In this document: one piece after another, positions 5,003 to 17,607 of the stretch
Layout: every line of letters begins with the position of its first letter
How positions within the stretch are numbered: position 1 is the first letter of the stretch
From: Marinibacterium profundimaris
GTDB taxonomy: Bacteria; Pseudomonadota; Alphaproteobacteria; Rhodobacterales; Rhodobacteraceae
Assembly: GCF_002210095.1 (NCBI RefSeq)
Contig: NZ_AQQR01000004.1
Location: 62,001 to 126,000 of the forward strand
Direction: 5' to 3'
Length of the DNA: 64,000 bases
The notes under the pieces: generated by a model
Database searches by the model: none
Told to the model about the DNA's origin: nothing
What the model saw: the letters and a program-made list of their open reading frames with translations, nothing else
Translations under genes and position numbers: made by a program

Positions 5003-6061
5003 TCAGGCGGCCTTGTGCGCGCCCTTGCCATGGCAGACCGGGCAATCCGCCCGTGGCTTCAGCGTGATCGTGCGCGTCTCGCCGTAAAGCGCGTCGTAGA
5101 TCAGCATCTGCCCCCGAAGCGGCATGCCCGCGTCCGAGATCAGCTTCACCGCCTCGACCGCCATCATCGCGCCCACCACGCCGGGCAGCGGGCCGACCAC
5201 CCCCGCCTCGGCGCAGGAGGGCGCCAGCCCCGGCGCCGGCGGCTCGGGGAAGATGCACTGGTAGCAGGGCCCGCCCCAGGACGGATCGAAGACCGACAGC
5301 TGCCCCTCCCATTGCGACAACGCGCCCGAGATCAGCGGCTTGCCCAGATCCACCGCGGTGCGGTTGGCCAGATAGCGGGTGTCGAAATTGTCGGTCCCGT
5401 CGAGGATCAGGTCATAATCGGCGAACAGCGCCTCGGCCATGTCGGGCTCCAGCCGCCGGTGATAGGGCCGTACGGTGACAAAGGGGTTCTGCGCGCGCAT
5501 CGCCATCTCGGCCGAGAACACCTTGGGCATGCCGATGCGGTCGTCGGTATGGATCACCTGGCGCTGCAGGTTCGCGTTCTCGACCACGTCGTCGTCGATC
5601 ACCCCGATCGTGCCGACCCCGGCGGCGGCCAGGTATTGCAGCGCCGGCGCGCCCAGCCCCCCGGCGCCGATCGCCAGCACCTTTGCGTCTTTCAGCCGTT
5701 TCTGCCCCGGCCCGCCCAGCTCGCGCAGCACGATATGCCGCGCGTAGCGCTCCAGCTCGGTCTGGGAAAACCGCCCCGGTTTCACCTCGGGCGTCTCCTC
5801 GGCCTGCGGCGCCCGCGCCTTCAGCCACTTCAGCCCTGTCCGGTACAGCATCACCATCGCCGCGAAGGCCCCGATCAGCAGCCACAGCTCCGGCTCGCGC
5901 CCCGTGACCTGGCGCAGCGGATGGCCCGCCGGCAGCACCACGTTGATCGCAAGCGCCCCCAGCCAGACAAGCCCGATCGCCTGCCAGCGCGCCCGCGCCG
6001 GCACGCCCATCGCCGCGCCCAATGCCCAGAGCGCGCCCGCGAAGACCAGGACCAGCAGCAT
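5003..6061 (-). CDS. moeB: HesA/MoeB/ThiF family adenylyltransferase with N-terminal membrane segments
   Basis: A 352-residue E1-like enzyme. Residues 1-80 carry about three hydrophobic stretches (for example 'MLLVLVFAGALWALGAAMG'), then a ThiF domain begins at about residue 95: 'RYARHIVLRELGGPGQKRL', the ATP loop 'GAGGLGAPALQYLAAAGVG', 'DDDVVENANLQRQVIH', and a C-terminal zinc CxxC in 'DCPVCHGKG'. MoeB adenylates the MoaD C-terminus in molybdopterin synthesis; ThiF acts on ThiS. The absence of a C-terminal rhodanese domain fits MoeB. The membrane extension is unusual against the roughly 250-residue Escherichia coli enzyme. The M3 peptidase gene follows on the same strand. Confidence 0.85.
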   Translation of the reverse strand: MLLVLVFAGALWALGAAMGVPARARWQAIGLVWLGALAINVVLPAGHPLRQVTGREPELWLLIGAFAAMVMLYRTGLKWLKARAPQAEETPEVKPGRFSQTELERYARHIVLRELGGPGQKRLKDAKVLAIGAGGLGAPALQYLAAAGVGTIGVIDDDVVENANLQRQVIHTDDRIGMPKVFSAEMAMRAQNPFVTVRPYHRRLEPDMAEALFADYDLILDGTDNFDTRYLANRTAVDLGKPLISGALSQWEGQLSVFDPSWGGPCYQCIFPEPPAPGLAPSCAEAGVVGPLPGVVGAMMAVEAVKLISDAGMPLRGQMLIYDALYGETRTITLKPRADCPVCHGKGAHKAA

Positions 6062-6497
6062 CAGCTTGCCCCGTCCGGGCCGACGCCGCCCCGGGCCGGG
6101 GCAAGGCGGGCCTGAAACTCTGGCGCGAGCACCGTCTGCGCGATCGGGTCGTCACGGCCGGCTACGAAAGACCCACTGCCGATCCCTCGGACTGGGCCCG
6201 TGCCACATGCGTCCGGCGACCCTTTGTCTATATGCAATTTCGTCATTTTTCTCTTCTAAGCGCAGGCCGAACCGTTTGGAAGGCATGCTTGCTGCCGTTT
6301 GAAGGGCGACCTTAACGCGATTGGTCTTTCCGTCATGAGCTGGGGACAGGCCCCGGTGATTTCAGCACAGGAACACGATTCACGGAAAACGGTGCGGTGC
6401 CGGGACCTGGTTGCAGCCATGGCAAATGTCATCCGTGAAATTTTTTCAGCCTCCTTATCATGGACTAAGCCTTCTTCGCCCGGCCAGGGATTTTCGG
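6062..6497. other. Intergenic junction, no convincing gene
   Basis: This stretch between moeB and the dctP promoter holds short open frames on both strands but none with recognisable sequence or a good ribosome site. It marks the left boundary of the catabolic module, and the sequence from about 6230 onward is less GC-rich than the genes around it. I see no direct repeat, integrase or tRNA that would define an insertion end. Confidence 0.4.
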
Positions 6498-6554
6498 TTG
6501 ACGGATGGCCGAAACTTTCATCTGATCCCCAAATGTTGCGCAAACGGTTGCGCA
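6498..6554 (+). promoter_or_regulatory. dctP promoter with LacI-type operator
   Basis: A possible -35 TTGACG (6498-6503) and -10 TCTGAT (6521-6526), 17 bp apart, are followed 10 bp later by TGCGCAAACGGTTGCGCA at 6537-6554. That 18-bp sequence is an inverted repeat matching 8 of 9 positions per half, with the central CG typical of LacI-family sites. The same operator sits at the same distance from a promoter before the LLM oxidoreductase gene at 10834. An extra half-like TTTGCGCA lies at 6561-6568. A repressor bound here would block transcription start or escape. Confidence 0.75.
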
Positions 6555-6656
6555 TTCAAATTTGCGCACCGCAGGGACTGAGGGCGGCGCGCCAAAGGAC
6601 AGAGATCTTCGCCCAGCCCGACGGATCGGGCGGCAAGAGATAGAGGAGGACCATCC

Positions 6657-7646
6657 ATGAAACATCTGCTCAGCAGCGTGCTGGCCGCTGCCGTCACACT
6701 CTCGGCCGGTGCAGCCGCGGCGCAGGATCGCAGCCTTCGGATCGCCACCAGCGTGCCACAGGACCATTACCTGACCCTCAGCATTGCCGAATTCGCGGAT
6801 CGCGTGACCGAACGCACCGATGGACAGGTCACCTTCGACATCTACCCGGCCCAGTCGCTCGTGACCGACCAACAGATGGACCAGGCCGTCGCAAGCGGCG
6901 TCGTTGATATCGGCGTCGGGTCGGCGTCGATCCTCGCGGGGACCATTCCGGCGCTGAACATCTTCGCCGTGCCCTTCTATTTCGACACGCGCGAGAAGCT
7001 CGACAATTCGGTCACCGTCGGCACCCCGATCCGCGACACGCTGGATGCCGAGATCCGCAAGACCGGCCTCAACGCCGCCTTCTGGATCCCGTTCGGCTCC
7101 ATCACGATGGTGATGCGGGACAAGCCGGTGCGCCTGCCGTCCGAAATGGAAGGCCTCAAGATCCGCAGCTTCGGCGCGACGGTCAGCCAGTTCATCGAGA
7201 CGGTCGGCGCGGCGCCGGTCGTGACAAGTGGCGGCGAACAGTTCCTGGCCCTGCAGCGCGGTATCGTCGACGGCGGCATGACCGGCTGGAGTTCGGTCAC
7301 CGGGCGCAGGCTTTACGACGTGGCCGACTACGTCGTGGCGACGGACCATATGTACGAAACCCACTTCGCCCTGATGAGCCAGACCATGTGGGAAAGCCTG
7401 TCGCCCGAGGTGCAGGAGGTGTTCCAGTCAGTCGGCAAGGAACTCGAGGCCGAGCTTCTGGACGGCGTGATCCAGCTTGCTCAGGACGCCAAGGACGAGC
7501 TTGAAGGCAAGATGGAGATCATCGAACTGACCGAGGACGAAAAGCTTGCCTGGAAGGACGCGACCAGGCCGGTTGCCGAAGACTTCCTGGCCAATGCCAA
7601 TGACGTCGCCAGGACCGTCTTCGACGAAGCGGAGAAGATCCAGTAA
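6657..7646 (+). CDS. TRAP transporter substrate-binding protein (DctP family)
   Basis: A 329-residue periplasmic solute receptor of a tripartite ATP-independent transporter. It has a clear Sec signal peptide ('MKHLLSSVLAAAVTLSAGAAAA', cut after AQ-like residues near 23). The DctP fold is seen in 'ATSVPQDHYLTLSIAEFADRVTERTDGQVTFDIYPAQSL' and the substrate-arginine region 'EGLKIRSFGATVSQFIE' near residue 165, which usually binds a carboxylate. A strong GGAGG lies 8 nt before the ATG. It starts a dctP-dctQ-dctM operon. The ligand is unknown; by context it should be the substrate of the divergently placed oxidative operon. Confidence 0.93.
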   Translation: MKHLLSSVLAAAVTLSAGAAAAQDRSLRIATSVPQDHYLTLSIAEFADRVTERTDGQVTFDIYPAQSLVTDQQMDQAVASGVVDIGVGSASILAGTIPALNIFAVPFYFDTREKLDNSVTVGTPIRDTLDAEIRKTGLNAAFWIPFGSITMVMRDKPVRLPSEMEGLKIRSFGATVSQFIETVGAAPVVTSGGEQFLALQRGIVDGGMTGWSSVTGRRLYDVADYVVATDHMYETHFALMSQTMWESLSPEVQEVFQSVGKELEAELLDGVIQLAQDAKDELEGKMEIIELTEDEKLAWKDATRPVAEDFLANANDVARTVFDEAEKIQ

Positions 7647-7756
7647 GCTCCCCGTCCCGTCCGGCCTCCGGGGCCGGCAGGATGATGCGCCGCATCCCTG
7701 CCGGCCCCGAATGCCCCCCGAAATGCCTTTCCCATCTTCCTACCCAAAGGTGAACA

Positions 7757-8311
7757 ATGTCTGCTGAGACCCCACCGGCCGGTCCGCGCCAGCGGCACTG
7801 GCTGCTGTCCGTCACGGACCGGATCGTCCTGACGTCCGGCCATATCGGTTCATGGATCTTTTTTGTCGTCGGCGGCTGCGTCGCATACGAGGTCGTCGTC
7901 CGCTACGGCTTCAACAATCCGACCCACTGGGTCGAGGAAGTGTCGCGGCTTGGCATGGTGTGGGGCACGTTCCTGGCCCTGGCAACCTGCCTGAACCGGC
8001 GTCAGATGATCACGATCACCGTGCTGCTCGACAGGCTCGGCCCGCGGGCCCGCTTTGTCCAGGAAGTCATCACCTTCACGCTGGTCGCCGTGCTTGCCGC
8101 GGTCATCGCCTGGTACGCCCTGGAGTCCATGATGCAGACCATTTCCGTCAATCGGCGGACCAATACTGTCATGTCCATGCCCTACTGGGTGTTCTACCTC
8201 GCCATCATCATCGGCTTTGCCCTGCTCCTGCTTCAGGCGCTGACGGACATCATCGTGATGGCCGTGACAGGGACACGGCCCAGAGGTGGCTTCGGACAAG
8301 AGGAGATTTGA
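7757..8311 (+). CDS. TRAP transporter small permease (DctQ family)
   Basis: A 184-residue inner-membrane protein with four hydrophobic segments, as usual for the small TRAP subunit. The hallmark 'WVEEVSRLGMVWGTFLALATCLNRRQMITI' is visible around residues 55-85. It links the periplasmic receptor to the large permease. It follows dctP after a 110-bp gap and is almost contiguous with dctM (next start one base after its stop), which indicates coupled translation. Confidence 0.92.
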   Translation: MSAETPPAGPRQRHWLLSVTDRIVLTSGHIGSWIFFVVGGCVAYEVVVRYGFNNPTHWVEEVSRLGMVWGTFLALATCLNRRQMITITVLLDRLGPRARFVQEVITFTLVAVLAAVIAWYALESMMQTISVNRRTNTVMSMPYWVFYLAIIIGFALLLLQALTDIIVMAVTGTRPRGGFGQEEI

Positions 8312-8312
8312 C

Positions 8313-9596
8313 GTGGACTCCGTCCTGATCCTGTCCGCCCTGTTCCTGCTGCTGTTCTGCGGAATACCGGTCGGCCTGTCGCTGACGGCCGTCGGCACCC
8401 TGCTGTTCCTGTTCAAGGGCATCCCGCTGGCCGGTATTCCCGAAGACTTCCTGGGCTCTTTCAACAGCTTCATCCTGCTGGCCGTGCCGATCTTCCTGCT
8501 GACCTCGAACATCCTGCTGCGTGCCGGCGTGGCCAAGGACCTGTTCGACGCCGTGCAACGCTGGGTCGGTTCGATCCGGGGCGGCGTCGCCGTCTCGACC
8601 ATCCTGTCCTGCGGGATCTTCGCGGCGATCTCCGGCTCGTCCGTGGCGGTGGCCGCCATGATCGGCACCGTCGCCATCCCCGAGATGACGCGACGCGGCT
8701 ATGACCAGAGGTTCGTGATGGGCACGCTGGCAGCCGGCGCGACGCTGGGCATCCTGATCCCGCCGTCGATCCCGCTGATCGTCTATGCCTCGGTGACAGA
8801 GCAATCCACCGCGTCGATGTTCCTGGCGGGTGTCGGCCCGGGCCTGCTGCTGATCGCGGCCTTCGTGGCCTATTGCGTGGTGAAGTCCTTCCTTGGCGGC
8901 GCCCCCGTCACCGAGACGGGCGACGAGACGGAGCAGCGGAAATCGCTTCTTCGGGTCTCGCTCAAGGCGTTTCCGACGATGCTGATCGCCATCACGATGA
9001 TCGGCGGCATCTATGCCGGGATCTTCACCCCGACCGAATCCGCCGCCGTGGGCCTGATCATGACGCTGGTCTACGTGTTCACCTTCCGGGACAGCTTCGG
9101 CTTTGCCGAGCTGAGGGGCGCGGTTTTCCAGTCCGGCGCGACAACGGCCAACCTGCTGCTGATCATCGGCGGGGCCAATGTCTTCGGCAAGGCGATCCTG
9201 CTCTACCGGATCCCGTTCGAAATCTCGACCTGGATCACCGACAACATCGCCAGCGCGGGCGTCTTCATCCTTGTCGTCGTGCTACTGCTGGTGGTGCTTG
9301 GGCTCTTCCTCGAAGGGATCGCGATGATCCTGATCGTGCTGCCCGTGCTGCTGCCGGCGCTGGGCGTGCACGGGATCGACCCGGTGTGGTTCGGCATCTT
9401 CTTCGTGCTGATGATCGAACTGGCCCTGATCACGCCACCGGTGGGCATGAACCTCTTCGTGATCCAGTCCGTGGCGAAATCCGACCTGAGCGAGGTGATC
9501 TACGGCGTCATTCCCTACGCGGTGATCATGATGGCCATGGTCGCATTGATCTACGCCTTCCCGATGATCGTTCTCTACATCCCGTTCTTCGGGTGA
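8313..9596 (+). CDS. TRAP transporter large permease (DctM family)
   Basis: A roughly 427-residue, 12-segment membrane protein that carries out sodium-driven solute uptake. Family marks include 'FLLTSNILLRAGVAKDLFDAVQRWVGSIRGGVAVSTILSCGIFAAISGSS' in short recognisable blocks and 'GATLGILIPPSIPLIVYA', plus the C-terminal 'ELALITPPVGMNLFVIQS'. I place the start at the GTG at 8313, not the in-frame ATG at 8286: an AAGAGGAG site lies 7 nt before the GTG, the protein then begins like other DctM proteins, and the overlap with dctQ disappears. Confidence 0.92.
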   Translation: MDSVLILSALFLLLFCGIPVGLSLTAVGTLLFLFKGIPLAGIPEDFLGSFNSFILLAVPIFLLTSNILLRAGVAKDLFDAVQRWVGSIRGGVAVSTILSCGIFAAISGSSVAVAAMIGTVAIPEMTRRGYDQRFVMGTLAAGATLGILIPPSIPLIVYASVTEQSTASMFLAGVGPGLLLIAAFVAYCVVKSFLGGAPVTETGDETEQRKSLLRVSLKAFPTMLIAITMIGGIYAGIFTPTESAAVGLIMTLVYVFTFRDSFGFAELRGAVFQSGATTANLLLIIGGANVFGKAILLYRIPFEISTWITDNIASAGVFILVVVLLLVVLGLFLEGIAMILIVLPVLLPALGVHGIDPVWFGIFFVLMIELALITPPVGMNLFVIQSVAKSDLSEVIYGVIPYAVIMMAMVALIYAFPMIVLYIPFFG

Positions 9597-9641
9597 CCGC
9601 GCGTCGGCCGGGCGCCCGTCCGGCCGACGCTCCTTATTGCC

Positions 9642-10661
9642 TCAGCCACTTGATCCGCGAAGGATCAGGCGACCGCGCAACGACACCGCCTCGTCGGGCA
9701 TGTCGTGATTGGCCACGCGGGCCTCGACCATCTCGAAGGCCCGCTTGAGCATCAGCGTCAACGGTTGCTCGATCGTCGTCAGGCCATAGATCTCGCGGCC
9801 CGTCTCCGGCAGCCCGTCGAAGCCCACGACCGCCGTATCCTCCGGCACGCGCAGCCCCTTCAGCCGCAGCCCGTCCATGACCCCCATCGCCATGATGTCA
9901 CTGAGCGCGAACAGCGCGTCGGGTCGCGTGTCGTCCGGCAATGCGGCGATCTCCGCAGCCGCGGCAAACCCCCCGTCATAGCTGGATTGCCCATCCACCC
10001 GCAGAGCCACGTCCAGGCCTGCGGCATTGATTTCGGCAACGAAGCCTTCCTCGCGATCCTTGGAGGTCGAACTGAAGTTGGTCGTCCGGATGATGCCGAA
10101 CCGGCGGCGCCCTTTGGACAGCAGAAGACGCGCCAGTTCCGCCCCGCCGGCGCGGTTGTCACAGGTCACGGCGCATCCCTGCGAATAGGCGACCCGGTTC
10201 ACCATCACCAGAGGCACCCGGTTCGCCGCGCAGATCTTGTCCGCCTGGGACGACATCACCGCCGAGGAAATGATGCAGCCGTTCACCTGGTAGTTCAGAA
10301 GCGCCTGGGCCGTCCGTTCCTCGATCGGGCCTTCGCCGGCGTGGATGATCAGCAGCCGGAACCCAAGCTCCTCGGCCAGCGCCGTCGCCGCGTACATGAG
10401 CTGCGTGTAGAACGGGTTGGTAACCGGCCCCAGAACCAGGCCATAAAGCCCGTTGCGCCCCGACGACAATGTGCGCGCCAGGATGTTGGGCGTATAGCCG
10501 AGTTCACGCGCCAGGCCGAGGATGCGGTCGCGCGTCTTCTTGGAGATACGCGTGTCTCCCCTCAGCGCCCGCGTCACGGTGGACGGAGCGACCCCCGCGC
10601 GCTGGGACAAGGTGACCACGGTGGGCCGGCGCGGCTTCGGCTGATCGGGTTCGTCAGTCAT
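9642..10661 (-). CDS. LacI family transcriptional regulator
   Basis: A 339-residue repressor-type protein. The N-terminal helix-turn-helix reads 'VTLSQRAGVAPSTVTRALRGDTRIS', followed by a hinge with 'NILARTLSSGRNG' and a periplasmic-binding-protein-like effector domain ('YGLVLGPVTNPFYTQLMYAA'). It sits between the TRAP operon and the oxidative operon, facing the latter divergently. Both flanking operons carry a near-identical 18-bp LacI-type operator downstream of their promoters, so it very probably represses both until the substrate or an intermediate binds. Confidence 0.93.
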   Translation of the reverse strand: MTDEPDQPKPRRPTVVTLSQRAGVAPSTVTRALRGDTRISKKTRDRILGLARELGYTPNILARTLSSGRNGLYGLVLGPVTNPFYTQLMYAATALAEELGFRLLIIHAGEGPIEERTAQALLNYQVNGCIISSAVMSSQADKICAANRVPLVMVNRVAYSQGCAVTCDNRAGGAELARLLLSKGRRRFGIIRTTNFSSTSKDREEGFVAEINAAGLDVALRVDGQSSYDGGFAAAAEIAALPDDTRPDALFALSDIMAMGVMDGLRLKGLRVPEDTAVVGFDGLPETGREIYGLTTIEQPLTLMLKRAFEMVEARVANHDMPDEAVSLRGRLILRGSSG

Positions 10662-10702
10662 CCGCTCCCCTCCCCTTGCGATTCGCAGCGGTCCGCCGCG
10701 CG

Positions 10703-10715
10703 TGAAAACGTTTCA
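10703..10715. promoter_or_regulatory. Possible second LacI-type site near the regulator's own start
   Basis: TGAAAACGTTTCA contains the perfect 8-bp palindrome AAACGTTT with the central CG seen in LacI-family operators. It lies 42 bp upstream of the regulator start. The arms differ from the TGCGCA arms of the two strong operators, so it may be an autoregulatory weak site or chance. Confidence 0.35.
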
Positions 10716-10795
10716 TGCCCTTCATCCCCAGGTCTCCTGCATCAGCCCTGCCGGGCCGATCAACCGCCATTTTGAACGACAGGCCGATCCGACGC

Positions 10796-10851
10796 TTGAC
10801 ATTCATACACGCCGGCGCTTCATTGACCATCATTGCGCACACGTTTGCGCA
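10796..10851 (+). promoter_or_regulatory. Promoter and LacI-type operator of the oxidative operon
   Basis: A -35 TTGACA (10796-10801) and a weak -10 TTCATT (10819-10824), spaced 17 bp, are followed 9 bp later by TGCGCACACGTTTGCGCA (10834-10851), an 18-bp inverted repeat matching 8 of 9 positions per half. The site differs from the one at 6537-6554 only in the centre. Its placement just after the expected start point fits repression by the adjacent LacI protein. Confidence 0.75.
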
Positions 10852-10907
10852 CTACTTCGAACCGCTCCCGAGACGTTCGGGCAAGCATGAAATGGGAGGC
10901 GTGAAAC

Positions 10908-12254
10908 ATGACTGCGCGCAAGCGACAGATCAAAATGGTGGGCTTTCTCCAGGCTCAGAACTGTTCCATCGCGCCGGGGTCCTGGCGGCACCCGGCCGGG
11001 GCCACGGACTTCCTGGGGCCGGAGTATTTCCAGCGCATCGGCCGCATCCTCGAAGACGGCAAGTTCCACCTCGCGTTCTTCGACGACCGGCTCGCCATGC
11101 CGGACATCTACCAGGACGACCACAAGGAAGCCGTCGCCAACGGCGTGCGCGTGGTCAAGATGGACCCGGTGTCGATCATCACCGCGATCGGCATGGCGAC
11201 CAGCAGGATCGGTCTGGGGATCACCTATTCCACGACCTATTACGAGCCCTTCCACGTCGCCCGGCTCTTCGCCACGCTCGACCTGATGACCAAGGGCCGC
11301 GCCGCCTGGAACGTCGTCACCTCGCTGAACGATTCCGAGGCCGCGAATTTCGGCCGCGACGGTCATCTGCCGCATGCCCAGCGATACGACCGGGCGGATG
11401 AATTCCTCGAAGTCGTGACCGGGCTGTGGAACAGCTGGGAAGACGACGCCATCACCCTCGACAAGACCACCGGCGACTTTGCCGACCCCGAAAAGGTCCA
11501 CAAGCTCGACCACAGGGGCACGTACTTCAACGTCAAGGGTCCGCTGCCGGTGCCGCGTTCGCCCCAGGGACAGCCGGTACTGATCCAGGCCGGCCAAAGC
11601 GGCCGGGGCCGCCAATTCGCGGGACGCTGGGGCAACCTGATCTTCGTCGTCTACCCGACCAAGGAAATCGGCCTCAAGCAATACGCCGCGGTCAAGGACG
11701 AGGTGAAGGCCTCCGGCCGCAACCCCGATGAGGTGGCAATCTGCCCGGCCTGCTATGTCTGCGTCGGCGAAACCGAGGACATCGCGAAGGAAAAGCGCGA
11801 TTACATCATGAACCTGGCCAAGCCCATCGACGCGCTTGTCCTGCTGTCCGAGGCGCTGAACTTCGACTTCGGCAGCAAGTCTCTCGACGATGAATTCACC
11901 GACGAGGAGCTGGAGAAGATCTCGTGGACCGGGTTCCGCGAACGGGTCGTGGCGCTCTCGGGCAAGGACCGTCCGACGGTGGGCGATTTCGTCGAATATT
12001 CCAAGCGCGGCACGATCGGCGAATTCCCCATCTTCTGCGGCACGCCGACCCAGGTCGCCGACCAGATGGAAGATTGGTTCACATCGGGCGCCTGCGACGG
12101 CTTTGTACTGGCGGCCACCCATACGCCCGGCGCCTTCGAGGATTTCACGCGTTTCGTGGTGCCCGAACTCCAGCGGCGCGGTCTCTACCAGGAAGATTAC
12201 GCGGGGACGACCCTGCGCGAGAACCTCGGCCTGCCCGCCCTGACCAACCCCTGA
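10908..12254 (+). CDS. LLM class flavin-dependent oxidoreductase (NtaA/SnaA/DszA family)
   Basis: A 448-residue two-component flavin monooxygenase of the bacterial luciferase superfamily. The NtaA/DszA branch is recognised from the N-terminal 'MVGFLQAQNCSIAPGSWRHP', 'FDDRLAMPDIY', 'NVVTSLNDSEAANFG' and 'HRGTYFNVKGPLPVPRSPQG'. Such enzymes use FMNH2 and oxygen to cleave C-N, C-S or ring bonds and need a separate flavin reductase, which is not encoded nearby. First gene of the five-gene operon. The substrate is unknown. A good GGGAGG precedes the start. The RibH2 gene at the end of the operon may supply extra flavin. Confidence 0.9.
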   Translation: MTARKRQIKMVGFLQAQNCSIAPGSWRHPAGATDFLGPEYFQRIGRILEDGKFHLAFFDDRLAMPDIYQDDHKEAVANGVRVVKMDPVSIITAIGMATSRIGLGITYSTTYYEPFHVARLFATLDLMTKGRAAWNVVTSLNDSEAANFGRDGHLPHAQRYDRADEFLEVVTGLWNSWEDDAITLDKTTGDFADPEKVHKLDHRGTYFNVKGPLPVPRSPQGQPVLIQAGQSGRGRQFAGRWGNLIFVVYPTKEIGLKQYAAVKDEVKASGRNPDEVAICPACYVCVGETEDIAKEKRDYIMNLAKPIDALVLLSEALNFDFGSKSLDDEFTDEELEKISWTGFRERVVALSGKDRPTVGDFVEYSKRGTIGEFPIFCGTPTQVADQMEDWFTSGACDGFVLAATHTPGAFEDFTRFVVPELQRRGLYQEDYAGTTLRENLGLPALTNP

Positions 12255-12313
12255 CACCGGCCCGGCGCATCGGGTTCGACCATTGTCCGGCCCGGCCGGA
12301 AGAGGAGGACATC

Positions 12314-13678
12314 TTGCAAGAATATCGCATGCTCTCGACCAGCGGCATCCTCGGCTACGGCTATGCCGAGGAATCGCTGAAGATCGGGATGAGCTGGGAT
12401 CCCCACGTCATCGGCTGCGACGGCGGCAGCACCGATCCCGGGCCCTATTACCTTGGCGCCGGCAAATCCTTCTGCTCGCGCCTGTCGGTCAAGCGGGACC
12501 TGCGGCTGATGCTTCAGGCCGCGACGGCGGCGGGCATCCCATGCATCGTCGGCACGGCCGGCGGCGCCGGCGGCGAGCCGCATCTGCAGGATACCGCCGC
12601 CCTGGTGCGCGAGATCGCGAAGGAAGACAACCTGTCCTTCAAGATGGCGCTGATCCATTCCGAACAGGGCGCGGACGACCTGATCAGCTGGATCGACGCC
12701 GGGCTGACCAAGCCGCTGGTCAAGATGGCGCCTCTGGACGCCGACACCGCGCGCCGGGCCGAACGGGTCGTGGGCATGATGGGGCCCGAGCCCATCGCAA
12801 AGGCGCTTGACGGCGGTGCCCAGGTGATCCTGACCGGCCGCAGCAGCGACCCCGCGCAATGGGCCGCGCCCGCCATCCGGGCCGGCATGGCCCCTGCCCC
12901 GTCCTGGTATGCCGGAAAGATGCTGGAATGCGGGGCCGAACCCTCGGTCCCCAAGGAGCCCGATTGCATCTTCCTTCGCGTCTTCGACGATCACGTGATC
13001 TGCGAGCCGCCCAACCCGATCCGCCGCTCGACCCCCCTGGCCGTGTCGAACTTTGCCCTGCACGAGAATTCGAGCCCGATCCACCACGTGGAGCCCGGCG
13101 GCCTTCTGGATACCAGCGCCTGCACCTTCACCGCCGTGTCCGACCGCGCCGTCAAGATCGACGGCATGACCTGGACTCCGGCGGACCAGTACACGATCAA
13201 GCTGGAAGGCGTGGAAAAGGCCGGATACCGCACGATCACCATCTGCGGCACCCGCGATCCGGTCCTGATCTCCCAGATCGATAGCTACCTCGAAACCCAT
13301 CGCGAAAAGGTGGCGATGAAGGCGGAATCCTTCGGCGTCCCCCGCGACGATTACCGCCTGATCGTGCGCACCTACGGGCGCAACGGCGTCATGGGTCCGT
13401 GGGAACCCGTCAAGGAGACCGCCGCGCACGAACTGGGCTTCGTCATCGAGGTCGTGGGCAAGACCCAGGACATCGCCGACGCGGTGCTGGCCATGGCGCG
13501 GACCTCGATGCTGCACGCGGATTTCGCCGGCCGGCTCTGCAAGGAAGGCAACATGGCCTTCCCGTTCAGCCCCTCCGACATCCCCATGGGGCCGATGTAC
13601 CGGTTCAGCGTGTTCCACACCGTCGCGGTCACGGATCCCTGCGCGATGTTCCCGATCGAATATGAAAAGGTAGGCTGA
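12314..13678 (+). CDS. AtuA-like (DUF1446) acyclic terpene utilization family protein
   Basis: A roughly 454-residue protein of the AtuA/DUF1446 family. The typical start 'TSGILGYGYAEESL', then 'IGCDGGSTDPGPYYLGAG', 'CIVGTAGGAGGEPHL' and 'ILTGRSSDPAQWAAPAIRAG' are visible. AtuA is needed for citronellol/geraniol use in Pseudomonas, but its reaction is not established; homologues occur in many acid and amide catabolic clusters. I choose the TTG at 12314 because AGGAGG ends 5 nt before it; an ATG at 12329 is the alternative. The frame is open further upstream only as a shadow of the LLM gene. A DUF4387 gene follows, the usual pairing. Confidence 0.85.
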   Translation: MQEYRMLSTSGILGYGYAEESLKIGMSWDPHVIGCDGGSTDPGPYYLGAGKSFCSRLSVKRDLRLMLQAATAAGIPCIVGTAGGAGGEPHLQDTAALVREIAKEDNLSFKMALIHSEQGADDLISWIDAGLTKPLVKMAPLDADTARRAERVVGMMGPEPIAKALDGGAQVILTGRSSDPAQWAAPAIRAGMAPAPSWYAGKMLECGAEPSVPKEPDCIFLRVFDDHVICEPPNPIRRSTPLAVSNFALHENSSPIHHVEPGGLLDTSACTFTAVSDRAVKIDGMTWTPADQYTIKLEGVEKAGYRTITICGTRDPVLISQIDSYLETHREKVAMKAESFGVPRDDYRLIVRTYGRNGVMGPWEPVKETAAHELGFVIEVVGKTQDIADAVLAMARTSMLHADFAGRLCKEGNMAFPFSPSDIPMGPMYRFSVFHTVAVTDPCAMFPIEYEKVG

Positions 13679-13681
13679 GAC

Positions 13682-13993
13682 ATGGCACGCATCAAAGACA
13701 TCGCCCAGATCTGCAAGAGCAAGAATGCCGGTCCCTTCAACGTCACCGTCGACGTGCTGTTCGAGGATCACGAGGTCTATCGCGCGGTCAAGGCGACCGG
13801 CGTCCTGACCCCGGCGCTGTTCTCGACGCTCTACGGCGTGGACGAGGCGGATATCCTCTTCACCCCCTACGACGCGGCGGCGGCCTTCAAGGTCACCTTT
13901 CCCCGCGCCGTGCCCGCCGGGGATTTCGGCGACACCGATGTCTACGGCTGCCAGCAGCACGCGCCGCTGCTGGACGTCGACATCCCGCTCTGA
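13682..13993 (+). CDS. DUF4387 domain protein, partner of the AtuA-like protein
   Basis: A 103-residue protein beginning 'MARIKDIAQICKSKNAGPFN', with 'VDVLFEDHEVYRAVKATGVLTPALFSTLYGV' in the middle. DUF4387 genes are nearly always found next to AtuA-like genes, and sometimes fused to them, suggesting a two-subunit enzyme of unknown reaction. It starts 3 nt after the AtuA stop. No signal peptide or membrane segment. Confidence 0.85.
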   Translation: MARIKDIAQICKSKNAGPFNVTVDVLFEDHEVYRAVKATGVLTPALFSTLYGVDEADILFTPYDAAAAFKVTFPRAVPAGDFGDTDVYGCQQHAPLLDVDIPL

Positions 13994-14149
13994 ACCGGCA
14001 GGCCAGACAAAGACAAGCCCATGGCCATACCCGCCGATCTCTCGGCGCGGCGGGTATGCCCGGGTCGTCCGGACCGTCACGGGCGCACAGGCCGCCGGCG
14101 GATGCCGCGCCGGCCGCGCAAAGACCAAACCGTTCAAAAGGAGCCCGCC

Positions 14150-15094
14150 ATGGAGAATTCCGGCGACAGGCCTATCGCAATCATCGGCGCCGGACTGGTC
14201 GGCATGGGCTGGGCCATCGTCTTTGCCCGCGCCGGCCGCAAGGTGCAGGTCCACGACGCCAGCGCCGACCTGCTGGCCGACCTGCCCGACCGGCTGGAGA
14301 CCGCGCTCGCCGATCTCGCCGACCATGGCCTGATCGGGGATCCCGCCCCGATCGCCGCGCGCATCACCATTGCCGGCTCGCTGGCAGAGGCGCTGCGCGG
14401 CGCGGTCTACGTGCAGGAATCCATCCTCGAACGGGTCGATGTGAAACGGGCGCTTTATGCCGAAATGGCGCCACTTCTCGCGCCCGACGCGCATGTTGGC
14501 TCGTCCTCCTCCGGCATTCCCTCGTCGGAATTCACCGCCGGGCTGTCCATTGCCCCGCGCTGCCTTGTCGCCCATCCGGTGAACCCGCCCTACCTGCTTT
14601 CGGTGGTAGAGCTGGTGCCCGCCGAATGGACCCTGCCCGAGGCAGTCGACAGCGTTCATGCCCTGATGCAGGCGGTCGGTCAGCACCCGATCCGCATCGC
14701 GCGCGAGCTGCGCGGCTTCGTGCTCAACCGCCTGCAGGGCGTGCTCCCGCGCGAAGCATGGGCGCTCTACGAGGAAGGCTATTGCAGCCTCGACGACATC
14801 GACGCGACGATCTCGAAGGGCCTGGGCCCCAGGTGGGCCTTCATGGGCCCCTTCGAAACCATCGATCTCAACGCGCCCGGCGGCATTGCCGATTATGCCC
14901 ATCGCCTGGGCGCGCTCTACCGCGATATCGCCGCCGAACGCAGCGAACATGCCCCGTGGAGCGCCGATCTGATCGCCCGTGCCGATGCCGAACGGCGCGC
15001 CAGCCTTCCGCTCGACAAGCTCGCCGACCGCTGCGTCTGGCGCGACCAGCGCCTGATGGCCTTCGCCGCACACAAGAAAACGCAACCGGAGTGA
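14150..15094 (+). CDS. 3-hydroxyacyl-CoA dehydrogenase family protein
   Basis: A 314-residue NAD-dependent dehydrogenase. The Rossmann loop 'IAIIGAGLVGMGWAIVFARAG' lies at residues 8-28, the catalytic region is 'HPVNPPYLLSVVELVP', and 'FVLNRLQGVLPREAWALYEEG' matches the C-terminal helical domain. The short single-domain form and the 'NPPY' motif resemble the branch that includes L-carnitine and L-gulonate dehydrogenases (lambda-crystallin type) as well as 3-hydroxybutyryl-CoA dehydrogenase. Start at 14150 is supported by AAAGGAG 6 nt upstream; the earlier in-frame start at 14021 has no such site. The 156-bp gap to DUF4387 is otherwise empty. Confidence 0.88.
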   Translation: MENSGDRPIAIIGAGLVGMGWAIVFARAGRKVQVHDASADLLADLPDRLETALADLADHGLIGDPAPIAARITIAGSLAEALRGAVYVQESILERVDVKRALYAEMAPLLAPDAHVGSSSSGIPSSEFTAGLSIAPRCLVAHPVNPPYLLSVVELVPAEWTLPEAVDSVHALMQAVGQHPIRIARELRGFVLNRLQGVLPREAWALYEEGYCSLDDIDATISKGLGPRWAFMGPFETIDLNAPGGIADYAHRLGALYRDIAAERSEHAPWSADLIARADAERRASLPLDKLADRCVWRDQRLMAFAAHKKTQPE

Positions 15095-15111
15095 CACTTC
15101 AGGAGCTTCAG

Positions 15112-15585
15112 ATGACTGCACCCCTATGCTTCGCCTTCATCAAGGCCAACTGGCACAGCGAAATCGTGACGCGGGCGCTGACCGGCTTTCAGGACCGCCT
15201 GGCCCGGCATCCCGGCCCCGTCACGGTCGAGGTCTTCGACGTGCCCGGCGCCTTCGAACTGCCTCTCGCCGCGCAGCGCCTGGCCCGCAGCCACCGGTTC
15301 GACGCCATCGCGGCCGCCGCCCTGGTCGTCGACGGCGGCATCTACAGGCATGATTTCGTTGCCCAAAGCGTCGTGTCCGGCCTTATGCAGGCGCAGTTGG
15401 AGACCGATGTTCCGATCCTCTCCATCTCGCTCACGCCGCATCATTTCCAGCCGACCGACGACCATGTCGCCTTCTTCTCCGATCATTTCCTGACGAAGGG
15501 ACGCGAGGCCGCCGAGGCCGCGCTCGCCGTTGCAGCCCCAGGCTATGCCGCACACGCTCTGGCCCCGGCACGGGCCACCGGCTGA
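15112..15585 (+). CDS. ribH2: RibH2-type 6,7-dimethyl-8-ribityllumazine synthase
   Basis: A 157-residue lumazine synthase, the penultimate riboflavin enzyme. It matches the rhizobial/Brucella RibH2 branch: 'FAFIKANWHSEIVTRAL', 'EVFDVPGAFELPLAAQRLA', 'VVDGGIYRHDFVAQSVVSGLM' and 'TDVPILSISLTPHHF'. The catalytic His is the one in 'YRHDF'. AGGAG lies 6 nt before the ATG, only 17 nt after the previous stop, so it belongs to the catabolic operon and not to a riboflavin operon. The likely role is boosting flavin supply to the LLM monooxygenase; a divergent activity cannot be excluded. Confidence 0.88.
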   Translation: MTAPLCFAFIKANWHSEIVTRALTGFQDRLARHPGPVTVEVFDVPGAFELPLAAQRLARSHRFDAIAAAALVVDGGIYRHDFVAQSVVSGLMQAQLETDVPILSISLTPHHFQPTDDHVAFFSDHFLTKGREAAEAALAVAAPGYAAHALAPARATG

Positions 15586-15602
15586 GCCCGCACTTAAGCG
15601 AA

Positions 15603-15646
15603 GCAGGCTGACCAGCCTGCCAGACGGCCCCGAAGCCTGCCGGGGC
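15603..15646 (+). terminator. Twin hairpins after the catabolic operon
   Basis: GCAGGCT...AGCCTGC (15603-15620) is followed by GCCCCG...CGGGGC (15627-15646). They lie in the convergent gap between ribH2 and dut. No U-run follows, so they may slow or end transcription only with Rho help. A further 12-bp palindrome, GCTCAGCTGAGC, is at 15655-15666. Confidence 0.4.
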
Positions 15647-15742
15647 ACACATTTGGCTCAGCTGAGCGACAGCCCGAGACCTCTGTAGCGACTTTCCCCC
15701 GGACCGCCCGACAAGGACCCGCCCCAAATGACCTTCAGACGA

Positions 15743-16192
15743 TCAATTCCGTCCCGTCGACCCGAACCCACCTGACCCGCGCTCGGTGCCAGAGAGCTCC
15801 TCCACGACCACGGTGGGATATCGCCGGACCTCGGCGATCACGGCCTGGGCAATCCGGTCCCCGTGACGGATCGTGTAGGGGTCTCGCCCAAGGTAATAGA
15901 GCCCCACCATCACGCAGCCCCGGAAATCCTCGTCAACCGTTCCCGGACTGTTCGGAATGATGAACCCGGTCTTGAGGGCAAGGCCGGACCGGGGCCGCAC
16001 CTGCATCTCGGTGCCCGGCGGCAGTTCGACGCAAAAGCCGGTCGAAATGATCTCCAGATCTCCGTGCTCGAAGGTAACCGGGCCGTCCGGCAGAAAGGCC
16101 CGAAGATCCATCCCCGCCGCACCATCCGTGGCATAGGCCGGCACAGGCAGATCCCGGTTGCCTTCGACGCGCTTGAACTTGATCTCGGTCAT
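15743..16192 (-). CDS. dut: dUTP diphosphatase
   Basis: A 149-residue trimeric dUTPase that hydrolyses dUTP to dUMP, keeping uracil out of DNA. All five motifs are visible: 'AAGMDLRA' (1), 'VRPRSGLALK' (2), 'NSPGTVDEDFRG' (3), 'GDRIAQAVI' (4) and the flexible glycine-rich tail 'RGSGGFGSTGRN' (5). Length is standard. It lies downstream of coaBC on the same strand, the usual arrangement in proteobacteria. Confidence 0.97.
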   Translation of the reverse strand: MTEIKFKRVEGNRDLPVPAYATDGAAGMDLRAFLPDGPVTFEHGDLEIISTGFCVELPPGTEMQVRPRSGLALKTGFIIPNSPGTVDEDFRGCVMVGLYYLGRDPYTIRHGDRIAQAVIAEVRRYPTVVVEELSGTERGSGGFGSTGRN

Positions 16193-16407
16193 CCGCCTTT
16201 TTCCCTTTGGTCATCATGGCATCCGCCGCCGCGCCGGCATCCCGGCTTCATGCGGCACAAGCACCCGTACCGCCCCCAGGTGCCATCCCGCGTCTGCACC
16301 TTTGCCGACATAGCCCGGCGCGACGCCTCAGCCCGAACACAGCCCGGACCCGCGTGCCGTCCCCCTGCTTCTTCTTGGCCAAATACTCCAAAGCACCGCC
16401 GCCACCC
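16193..16407. repeat. dut-coaBC gap with one copy of the CTTCTTCTTGG motif
   Basis: This 215-bp spacer holds the dispersed motif at 16368-16389 on the plus strand (CTTCTTCTTGG, CC, AAATACTCC), about 20 bp downstream of the coaBC stop codon and reading toward it. Otherwise it is GC-rich without an obvious gene. Confidence 0.6.
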
Positions 16408-17607
16408 TCACGACGTCTCCAGCTCCGCCGCGATCCGCGCCGCCAGCGCGCGGGCGACATCCGCCTTGCCCATCCGCGGCCAGCTTTCTGCGCCCTCGCC
16501 GGTGATCAGAACGACGGCATTCTCCGTCCCGCCCATGATCCCCGTCGCCGGCGACACGTCATTGGCCACGATCCAGTCGCAGCCCTTGCGCGCGCGCTTC
16601 GCCGTGGCGTGGGGGATCACGTCATCAGTCTCGGCGGCAAAGCCCACCACAAGCCCCGGCCGCCCCTCGCCCATCTGCGAGACACCGGCCAGGATATCCG
16701 GGTTCTCCGCCAGTTCGAACACCGGCAGCCCCTCGCGCGTCTTCTTCAGCTTCCGGTCCGAGGCCTGCGCCACCCGCCAGTCCGCCACGGCCGCGGCAAA
16801 GACCCCGGCATCCACCGGCAGCGCCGCCTGTACCGCGGCTTCCATCTCGCGCGCGCTTTCCACGCGCACCACCTGCACGCCCTCGGGCGGCGGCACGTCC
16901 GCGGGACCGGTGACAAAGATCACCTCTGCCCCCAGCGCCGCCAGCGCCGCGCCGATTGCCGTGCCCTGCGCGCCCGACGAGCGGTTTGCGATGTAGCGCA
17001 CCGGGTCGATCGGCTCATGCGTGGGCCCCGAGGTCACGAGGATGCGGCGTCCCTTCAGCGGCCCCTCACCCAGGGCGCCGGCAATCGCCTCGACGATCTC
17101 CATCGGTTCGGCCATCCGCCCCGGCCCGTATTCGCCGCAGGCCATGCCGCCCTCGTTCGGGCCCACCACGCGGATGCCGTCTTCCTTCAGCGTCTTCAGG
17201 TTCCGCTGTGTTGCCGCGTGTTCCCACATACGCACGTTCATCGCCGGCGCGATCAGCACCGGCGTGTCCGTCGCCATCAGCAGGGTCGAGGCCAGGTCAT
17301 CCGCCCGACCATGCGCCATCTTGCCCATCAGGTCCGCCGTCGCCGGTGCCACCACCACCAGATCGGCCGAGCGCGACAGCTCGATATGGCCCATCTCGGC
17401 CTCGGCCGTCAGGTCAAAAAGCGCGGTGAACACCTTCTCTCCGGCCAGGGCAGACACCGACAGCGGCGTCACGAATTCCGCCGCCGCGGCGGTCATCACC
17501 GGGGTGACGCTCGCGCCGCGTTCCGACAGGCGGCGGATCAGGTCGAGGCATTTATACGCCGCGATCCCGCCGCCGATGATGAGAAGGATGCGCTTTCCGG
17601 CCAGCAT
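16408..17607 (-). CDS. coaBC: Bifunctional phosphopantothenoylcysteine decarboxylase/synthetase
   Basis: A 399-residue fusion enzyme for two steps of coenzyme A synthesis. The N-terminal CoaC flavoprotein domain shows 'GGGIAAYKCLDLIRRL' and the substrate clamp 'APAMNVRMWEH'; the C-terminal CoaB domain begins near residue 185 with 'ILVTSGPTHEPIDPVRYIANRSSG'. I place the start at the ATG at 17607; the open frame upstream lacks family similarity. The dut gene follows on the same strand. Confidence 0.95.
   Translation of the reverse strand: MLAGKRILLIIGGGIAAYKCLDLIRRLSERGASVTPVMTAAAAEFVTPLSVSALAGEKVFTALFDLTAEAEMGHIELSRSADLVVVAPATADLMGKMAHGRADDLASTLLMATDTPVLIAPAMNVRMWEHAATQRNLKTLKEDGIRVVGPNEGGMACGEYGPGRMAEPMEIVEAIAGALGEGPLKGRRILVTSGPTHEPIDPVRYIANRSSGAQGTAIGAALAALGAEVIFVTGPADVPPPEGVQVVRVESAREMEAAVQAALPVDAGVFAAAVADWRVAQASDRKLKKTREGLPVFELAENPDILAGVSQMGEGRPGLVVGFAAETDDVIPHATAKRARKGCDWIVANDVSPATGIMGGTENAVVLITGEGAESWPRMGKADVARALAARIAAELETS

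Follow-up and report, generated by a model that had tools for sequence, protein, structure and literature searches.

Which compound does an operon degrade, and by which chemistry, if it joins an LLM-family monooxygenase dependent on flavin mononucleotide (FMN) to the AtuA–DUF4387 pair? The question is raised by five genes at positions 10908–15585 of a 64,000-nucleotide stretch of the Marinibacterium profundimaris genome (contig NZ_AQQR01000004.1, positions 62,001 to 126,000; hereafter the window), described in an original prediction as an oxidative catabolic set in which the reaction of AtuA–DUF4387 was unknown. We find that both proteins of this pair match the solved citramalate lyase CmlAB. 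On balance, we favour a LacI-controlled regulon for the import and degradation of a small organic acid, in which the monooxygenase (LLM) would oxygenate the acid and a CmlAB-like enzyme would then cleave a C–C bond. The start codons of AtuA (TTG, 12314), of the 3-hydroxyacyl-CoA dehydrogenase family protein (HCDH; ATG, 14150) and of RibH2 (ATG, 15112) were reset by eye from the sequence, which gives the following operon.

10908–12254, plus strand: LLM FMN-dependent monooxygenase, NtaA/DmoA family (TIGR03860, 504.6 bits, cut-off 279.7; PDB 5tlc, 409.6 bits)
12314–13678, plus strand: AtuA, CmlA-like lyase large subunit, TTG start (PF07287, 60.4 bits, cut-off 22.8)
13682–13993, plus strand: DUF4387, CmlB-like lyase small subunit (PF14330, 115.2 bits, cut-off 27; PDB 9erq_B)
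13994–14149: gap without a gene, where the flavin reductase gene sits in Roseovarius, Salipiger and other relatives
14150–15094, plus strand: HCDH, 3-hydroxyacyl-CoA dehydrogenase family, lambda-crystallin type (PRK06129, 414 bits, cut-off 347; PDB 3ado, 204 bits)
15112–15585, plus strand: RibH2-type lumazine synthase (PRK12419, 209.6 bits, cut-off 160; PDB 1t13, 160.5 bits)

In profile scans each family exceeds its curated cut-off, and all five genes lie on the plus strand, so that the predicted set does exist; its order recurs in Roseovarius aestuarii. The gaps are 59 bp between LLM and AtuA, 3 bp between AtuA and DUF4387, 156 bp between DUF4387 and HCDH, and 17 bp between HCDH and RibH2; AAGAGGAGGA precedes the TTG start of AtuA at 12314.

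AtuA–DUF4387 is related to citramalate lyase CmlAB

AtuA matches 9erq_A (E = 6.6e-106, 358 bits) and DUF4387 matches 9erq_B (1.3e-22, 83 bits), chains that carry the names citramalate lyase subunits A and B in PDB entries 9erq and 9evf. The model of AtuA (pLDDT 88.5) aligns with 9evf_A at a TM score of 0.90 and 41% identity, and it retrieved no further solved structure at E values up to 0.001, the next match standing at 0.02. The function of CmlAB is taken here from the PDB molecule names and from the title of 9evf ('Citramalate lyase - ADP - pyruvate complex', released 2025-10-08); the CmlAB paper is not among the matches listed in our literature searches, including those for citramalate combined with monooxygenase. 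An Escherichia coli AtuA, whose gene directly follows that of methylaspartate ammonia-lyase and has a class I fumarase gene close by, shares 91.5% identity with 9erq CmlA over the aligned part. The legend to Fig. 5 of one report gives the DUF1446 gene downstream of mal as a protein of unknown function (PMC4682846).

The resemblance extends to the side-by-side arrangement of the two genes, to the fold of the large subunit and to scaffold motifs kept in both AtuA groups considered below (D[GA]GS-DPGP-YLG, GR--DPA, GK-LEC and GN-AFP-SPSD). The reaction of the family is accordingly a C–C cleavage in which an adenine nucleotide is bound, and the assignment of AtuA–DUF4387 to the lyase type is well supported by the alignments and the structural model. 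At the family level, then, the reaction is no longer a blank, since both subunits match a solved enzyme. The original prediction also treated the lack of a CoA ligase or CoA transferase as a gap in the pathway, but it need not be one: a CmlAB-type lyase binds ADP and would require no CoA step, and an ATP-using lyase would explain why CoA-activating genes are missing.

Several observations weigh against the proposed route, and three of them concern this lyase. ATP use is read from the title of 9evf. In a FastTree phylogeny (107 rows chosen from 149 by similarity, the four CmlA-group rows being chosen by identity), AtuA of the window lies apart from CmlA with SH-like support of 99–100; one branch unites 37 LLM-linked rows with 12 that do not carry this label, and another holds CmlA and three others. 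The printed rows read GR-[ST]DPA-W and LHEN-SP----EPGG in the LLM-linked proteins versus GR-YDPA-F and LYEKS-P--LPGPGG in the CmlA group. Because of this separate clade and these differing residues, we call the pair CmlAB-like rather than citramalate lyase, and its substrate may be other than citramalate. The partners differ as well: LLM, LacI and a TRAP importer in the window, glutamate mutase, methylaspartate ammonia-lyase and class I fumarase for enterobacterial CmlAB. The same clade and motif differences would also suit a pair that is no lyase and puts the CmlAB scaffold to use in some other ATP-dependent conversion of a hydroxy or keto acid. We regard this as rather improbable given the scaffold motifs present in both groups, the close fold match and the known kinds of C–C lyase that replace or accompany AtuA–DUF4387 elsewhere (see below).

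AtuA of Pseudomonas acyclic terpene utilisation, which shares the PF07287 family with AtuA of the window, has reportedly been proposed to act as a lyase on a tertiary beta-hydroxy acid. However, no geranyl-CoA carboxylase, hydratase or other Atu/Liu gene was seen among the ten window genes scanned (6657–16192), nor were the nitrilotriacetate or uracil gene sets, in agreement with the prediction that none of these pathways is matched.

AtuA–DUF4387 pairs were also encountered in other settings. Four loci (L132, L145, L151 and L156) carry pairs of the window's clade without LLM, beside genes that by eye resemble hydantoinase/oxoprolinase subunits. A Cupriavidus oxalaticus plasmid (L178, NZ_CP038639.1) has two pairs, one next to citrate-synthase-family genes and the other next to a hydantoinase B gene. 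In a Klebsiella plasmid (L035, NZ_MK104259.1, 7977–16036), a cluster of AtuA, DUF4387, aldehyde dehydrogenase and fumarase lies a few kb from resistance genes. A Neorhizobium plasmid (L175, NZ_HG938357.1) places a CmlA-group pair with a P450, a ferredoxin-like gene, agmatinase and fumarase, possibly another citramalate route.

Conservation of an LLM–AtuA–DUF4387 core

Genome contigs were scanned with a profile of eight AtuAs, five of them LLM-linked, using two peptides typical of the window's clade, and the best 80 of 156 related stretches were kept as loci; as the query was built from one AtuA clade, the 80 loci sample that clade and not all AtuAs. Twenty of them are shorter than 15 kb and may hide genes. 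Gene counts depend on the identity and coverage thresholds (for LLM, 50% identity or more across at least half the length), which missed in L097 a short reductase that follows DUF4387 and in L166 a fragment of LLM, and which counted a reductase in L098 that lies away from the operon.

DUF4387 is present in 80/80 loci and LLM lies on the strand of AtuA in 64/80, at start-to-start distances of 1.4–3.0 kb. LLM falls below the threshold in 16/80, eight of which are shorter than 15 kb, and is present in 52 of the 60 longer loci. The core of the operon is thus LLM, AtuA and DUF4387. Additional genes are less frequent: LacI in 23/80 loci, TRAP in 11/80, HisD-like in 10/80, HCDH in 8/80 and RibH2 in 2/80, with a flavin reductase in 20 of the 64 LLM-bearing loci. 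Hence, of the expected co-occurrence of five families, the three-gene core is borne out while a fixed five-gene set is not.

The closest full match, in Roseovarius aestuarii, comprises DctPQM, LacI, LLM, AtuA, DUF4387, flavin reductase, HCDH, RibH2, a second LacI, a HisD-like gene and a short-chain dehydrogenase/reductase (SDR) gene, with identities to the window of 90% (LLM), 90% (AtuA), 88% (DUF4387), 74% (HCDH) and 67% (RibH2). Recurrence of the order in this species, with the reductase added, and of the core in the 64 loci argues that the operon is no chance assembly. The prediction of an operon for the oxidative breakdown of an imported compound is supported, with the importer as part of it. 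The distribution is sporadic: DUF4387 occurs in 59 of 390 genomes of the window's order, its own included, with a single full-length match above 50% identity beyond its own genome, and AtuA in 37 of 385 genomes of the class (E 1e-20).

C–C cleavage genes around relatives of LLM

LLM is of the NtaA/DszA type, as predicted, with DszA (5tlc) as its nearest solved relative. Like this group, it exceeds the curated TIGR03860 cut-off, and a flavin reductase gene lies close by in relatives of the window; unlike it, the ten scanned genes include no desulfurisation or nitrilotriacetate partners and the operon has no reductase gene.

Relatives of LLM without AtuA nearby were found in three plasmid lineages, Pseudosulfitobacter (62% identity), Variovorax (60%; AtuA lies more than 100 kb from LLM in this record) and Rhodococcus (56%). 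The first two clusters contain LLM, flavin reductase, a CaiB-type CoA-transferase and a CoA ester lyase. More specifically, malyl-CoA/beta-methylmalyl-CoA lyase is the closest match of the Variovorax lyase (358 bits), and the CoA-transferase of this cluster comes closest to an unnamed CaiB/BaiF protein, formyl-CoA transferase and succinate-hydroxymethylglutarate CoA-transferase. The Rhodococcus cluster has LLM with CoA ester lyases and no annotated CoA-transferase, although an unannotated CaiB-like stretch (34%) adjoins LLM. In the LLM tree (quick search, 51 of 80 rows, midpoint root beside a long branch), Pseudosulfitobacter, Variovorax and one alphaproteobacterial genus discussed below fall among the AtuA-linked LLMs, with support of 84 at the decisive fork, and Rhodococcus falls outside. 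The common thread of these neighbourhoods is C–C cleavage of a hydroxy- or keto-acid; by analogy, the product of LLM is probably a citramalate-like hydroxyacid. The itaconate/mesaconate route, with a CoA-transferase and a citramalyl/malyl-CoA lyase, performs the same kind of cleavage and has related genes beside relatives of LLM, but such genes are absent from the window's operon, and matches to the RipC, citE and mesaconate CoA-transferase models stay below cut-off.

The Pseudosulfitobacter set (TRAP, CitE, CaiB, LLM, reductase and RibB) lies on a 36-kb plasmid predicted to be conjugative (L172, NZ_CP086937.1), and two sister plasmids carry the same LLM; the pathway may thus be mobile.

The remaining points on the unfavourable side concern the sequence of steps and its partners. 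We hold the order of LLM before lyase, which is drawn by analogy, with moderate confidence. Among the 60 loci of 15 kb or more from the window's AtuA clade, eight have no LLM. Genes for CaiB-type CoA-transferase and CitE occur together in 21/64 LLM–AtuA loci, mostly in Acetobacteraceae or Roseomonas-like genera by name, and this joint presence of CmlAB-type and CoA-type cleavage genes fits two successive steps as well as it fits interchange. In the genus mentioned above, possibly Bradyrhizobium, nine genomes encode an LLM with 54–56% identity, and in the three examined this gene is flanked by Ldh2-like and FAA-hydrolase-like genes, a reading that Pfam bears out in one of them. These data could also be read the other way round, with AtuA–DUF4387 cleaving the imported or dehydrogenated acid first and LLM oxygenating a fragment, or with the two enzymes acting in two branches. 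The gene order AtuA–DUF4387–LLM of many Acetobacteraceae-type loci, the 21 loci with both kinds of lyase and one LLM, and the eight long loci without LLM all agree with it. We nevertheless consider it clearly the less probable order, as the two LLMs of Pseudosulfitobacter and Variovorax retain a C–C cleavage pair without AtuA nearby, which is what oxygenation before cleavage would lead one to expect.

Importer, regulators and putative operators

Upstream of the operon lies a complete TRAP importer (6657–9596), followed by a divergent regulator gene. The neighbouring genes and the sites found by pattern search are as follows.

6436–6448: putative LacI2-type site TGAAATTTTTTCA, upstream of the TRAP genes (inferred; exact TGAAANNNTTTCA)
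6537–6554: predicted LacI operator TGCGCAAACGGTTGCGCA, upstream of dctP
6657–7646, plus strand: DctP, TRAP solute-binding protein (PF03480, 9e-54)
7757–8311, plus strand: DctQ, TRAP small permease (PF04290, 1e-31)
8286–9596, plus strand: DctM, TRAP large permease, uncertain start (PF06808, 1e-93; TIGR00786 above cut-off)
9642–10661, minus strand: LacI-type regulator, divergent from the LLM operon (PF13377/PF00356; Roseovarius copy 78% identical)
10703–10715: second putative LacI2-type site TGAAAACGTTTCA (inferred; exact TGAAANNNTTTCA)
10834–10851: predicted LacI operator TGCGCACACGTTTGCGCA, upstream of the LLM gene

The palindrome TGCGCAAACGTTTGCGCA is recurrent between LacI and LLM. With up to 2 mismatches, it occurs at two places in the 6.15-Mb genome, before LLM and before DctP, both in the window, while its reversed control pattern has 0 sites in the whole genome. 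With up to 3 mismatches, the two operators of the window compare with 0.22 expected, and 1 of 100 shuffles reached two. In all 12 TRAP-bearing loci (the window and 11 named ones), exactly two sites with up to 3 mismatches were found, one within 400 bp upstream of DctP and one within 400 bp upstream of LLM; block shuffles, which kept dinucleotides only roughly, gave 0.02 per locus. The whole genomes of six relatives contain 0 to 3 operator places each at up to 2 mismatches, some of them outside the cluster. The TRAP genes seem to belong to the same LacI regulon as the LLM operon, because this operator type, at up to 2 mismatches, occurs in the genome only before these two gene groups. The shared operator is also the one piece of evidence, an indirect one, that bears on whether LLM and AtuA might respond to different inducers, which the original prediction named as a counter-argument.

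The second type of site, exact TGAAANNNTTTCA, occurs twice in the window (6436 and 10703) against 0.02 expected, for a pattern picked after such palindromes had been noticed. Its narrower form has three places in the genome, one on an unrelated contig. Exact sites were found in 8 of 28 loci scanned, including 5 of 10 LLM loci with HisD; where present, sites of this type mostly precede HisD, the second LacI, HCDH or TRAP. On contig C60 of its own genome, the organism has second LacI, HisD-like and SDR genes, HisD being 86% identical to the Roseovarius copy and preceded by a site with one mismatch to TGAAANNNTTTCA. This second LacI is a candidate binder of the TGAAANNNTTTCA-type sites of the window.

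Note that this HisD-like/SDR/LacI2 module (C60, 96000–115500; L191) lies beside MmgE/PrpD, an Asp/Glu racemase-like gene and an Amidohydro_2 gene, and beside genes that by eye resemble a second TRAP importer. MmgE/PrpD matches the compared loci at no more than 30% identity, and the racemase, amidohydrolase and alpha/beta-hydrolase genes have no match there at E 1e-20 and half coverage; these four genes are therefore left out of the proposed pathway. Sulfopropanediol (DHPS) was considered as substrate and rejected: the nearest solved relative of the HisD-like protein is sulfopropanediol 3-dehydrogenase, but sugar ABC transporters adjoin other copies of the module that have no LLM.

The first gene downstream of the operon is dut (15743–16192, opposite strand). 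A scan of 6200–16000 gave 0 sigma-70 promoters and 5 terminator-like sites against 5.3 expected. A 974-codon open frame on the minus strand (12197–15121), antisense to AtuA, DUF4387 and HCDH, has a weak codon-position signal (0.19) and looks like a high-GC shadow rather than a gene.

FMN supply and the accessory dehydrogenase

RibH2 is the second lumazine synthase of the genome, the other copy being on contig C23, and it occurs in such clusters in the window, Roseovarius and Salipiger. Other flavin biosynthesis genes stand at comparable places: a RibB/RibA-type gene follows the reductase in the Pseudosulfitobacter cluster, and a RibB-like gene adjoins the reductase, divergent from LLM, in a Cupriavidus cluster. 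Such genes thus joined LLM clusters at least three times, which is most simply read as FMN supply, and RibH2 probably boosts it for the oxygenase. No Rfam match to an FMN riboswitch was found for RibH2 in 6000–16500 at E values up to 0.1. The operon might instead degrade a flavin or lumazine-like compound, with LLM acting like riboflavin lyase, a member of the same family (5w48, 214 bits), and RibH2 as a catabolic or salvage partner within the operon. This is very improbable: DszA is far closer to LLM (409.6 bits), only 2/80 relatives have RibH2, and its replacement by RibB-type genes elsewhere is a better fit to FMN supply.

The absence of a flavin reductase noted in the original prediction holds: none was found in the operon and no trace of one in the 13994–14149 gap, the place directly after DUF4387 where close relatives (Roseovarius, Salipiger and others) have it. 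With its own reductase missing, the operon must receive FMNH2 from a reductase whose gene lies at another place. One on contig C3, a reductase-family gene 40% identical to the reductase of the Pseudosulfitobacter cluster, could be this source; in the M. profundimaris genome, no close copy of the Roseovarius operon reductase was found (best 27–30%).

The nearest solved protein to HCDH is lambda-crystallin (3ado), a relative of L-gulonate dehydrogenase, so that HCDH may act on a free 3-hydroxy acid. HCDH is accessory to the pathway. The cluster of Salipiger marinus DSM 26424 lacks HCDH, and that of Rhizobium sp. Leaf306 lacks RibH2. Its presence in 8/80 loci, that of RibH2 in two, and the 156-bp gap before HCDH would agree with both being chance neighbours of a three-gene pathway. 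This we think unlikely, as HCDH recurs at differing positions in Rhizobium, Phyllobacterium, Acidisphaera and Methylobacterium loci and in genome G081, and TGAAANNNTTTCA-type sites precede it in L095 and L096.

A proposed route and its significance

In the route that we favour, TRAP would import the organic acid or a hydroxylated precursor, which dehydrogenases would prepare in some hosts (HCDH here, with the HisD-like and SDR proteins encoded on another contig). LLM would use FMNH2 to oxygenate the acid, and a citramalate-like beta-hydroxy acid would arise either at once or through hydrolysis. AtuA–DUF4387 would then spend ATP to split a C–C bond without CoA, yielding a 2-oxo acid such as pyruvate together with acetate or acetyl phosphate, and RibH2 would raise riboflavin, and hence FMN, for the oxygenase. 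We see an even chance that this belongs to an undescribed oxygenative route for branched or hydroxylated organic acids, in which one LLM is combined with exchangeable C–C cleavage modules and flavin biosynthesis genes are repeatedly recruited as feed. The modules would be an ATP-dependent AtuA–DUF4387 lyase of new specificity, a CoA-transferase with a lyase of the malyl-CoA type, both together, or Ldh2 with FAA-hydrolase.

The term DUF4387 was not found in the library searched. Among the matches listed for combinations of AtuA with LLM, with lumazine synthase or with CoA ester lyase, no title concerned this operon; those for trigonelline/homarine ring opening, considered as an LLM precedent, held nothing about the gene set, and those for pRL8 indicated no substrate.

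In conclusion, this is a real, conserved and co-regulated catabolic system whose parts are known but whose combination of them did not appear in the literature searches made. One AtuA–DUF4387 clade is tied to an oxygenase, to an importer and to a regulon with two sites, which turns a domain of unknown function into a testable lyase with a candidate regulator and operator. The regulon and importer give a way to the substrate, as the compound that releases the LacI protein or is bound by DctP, and FMN supply offers a simple reason for an extra lumazine synthase in a catabolic operon.

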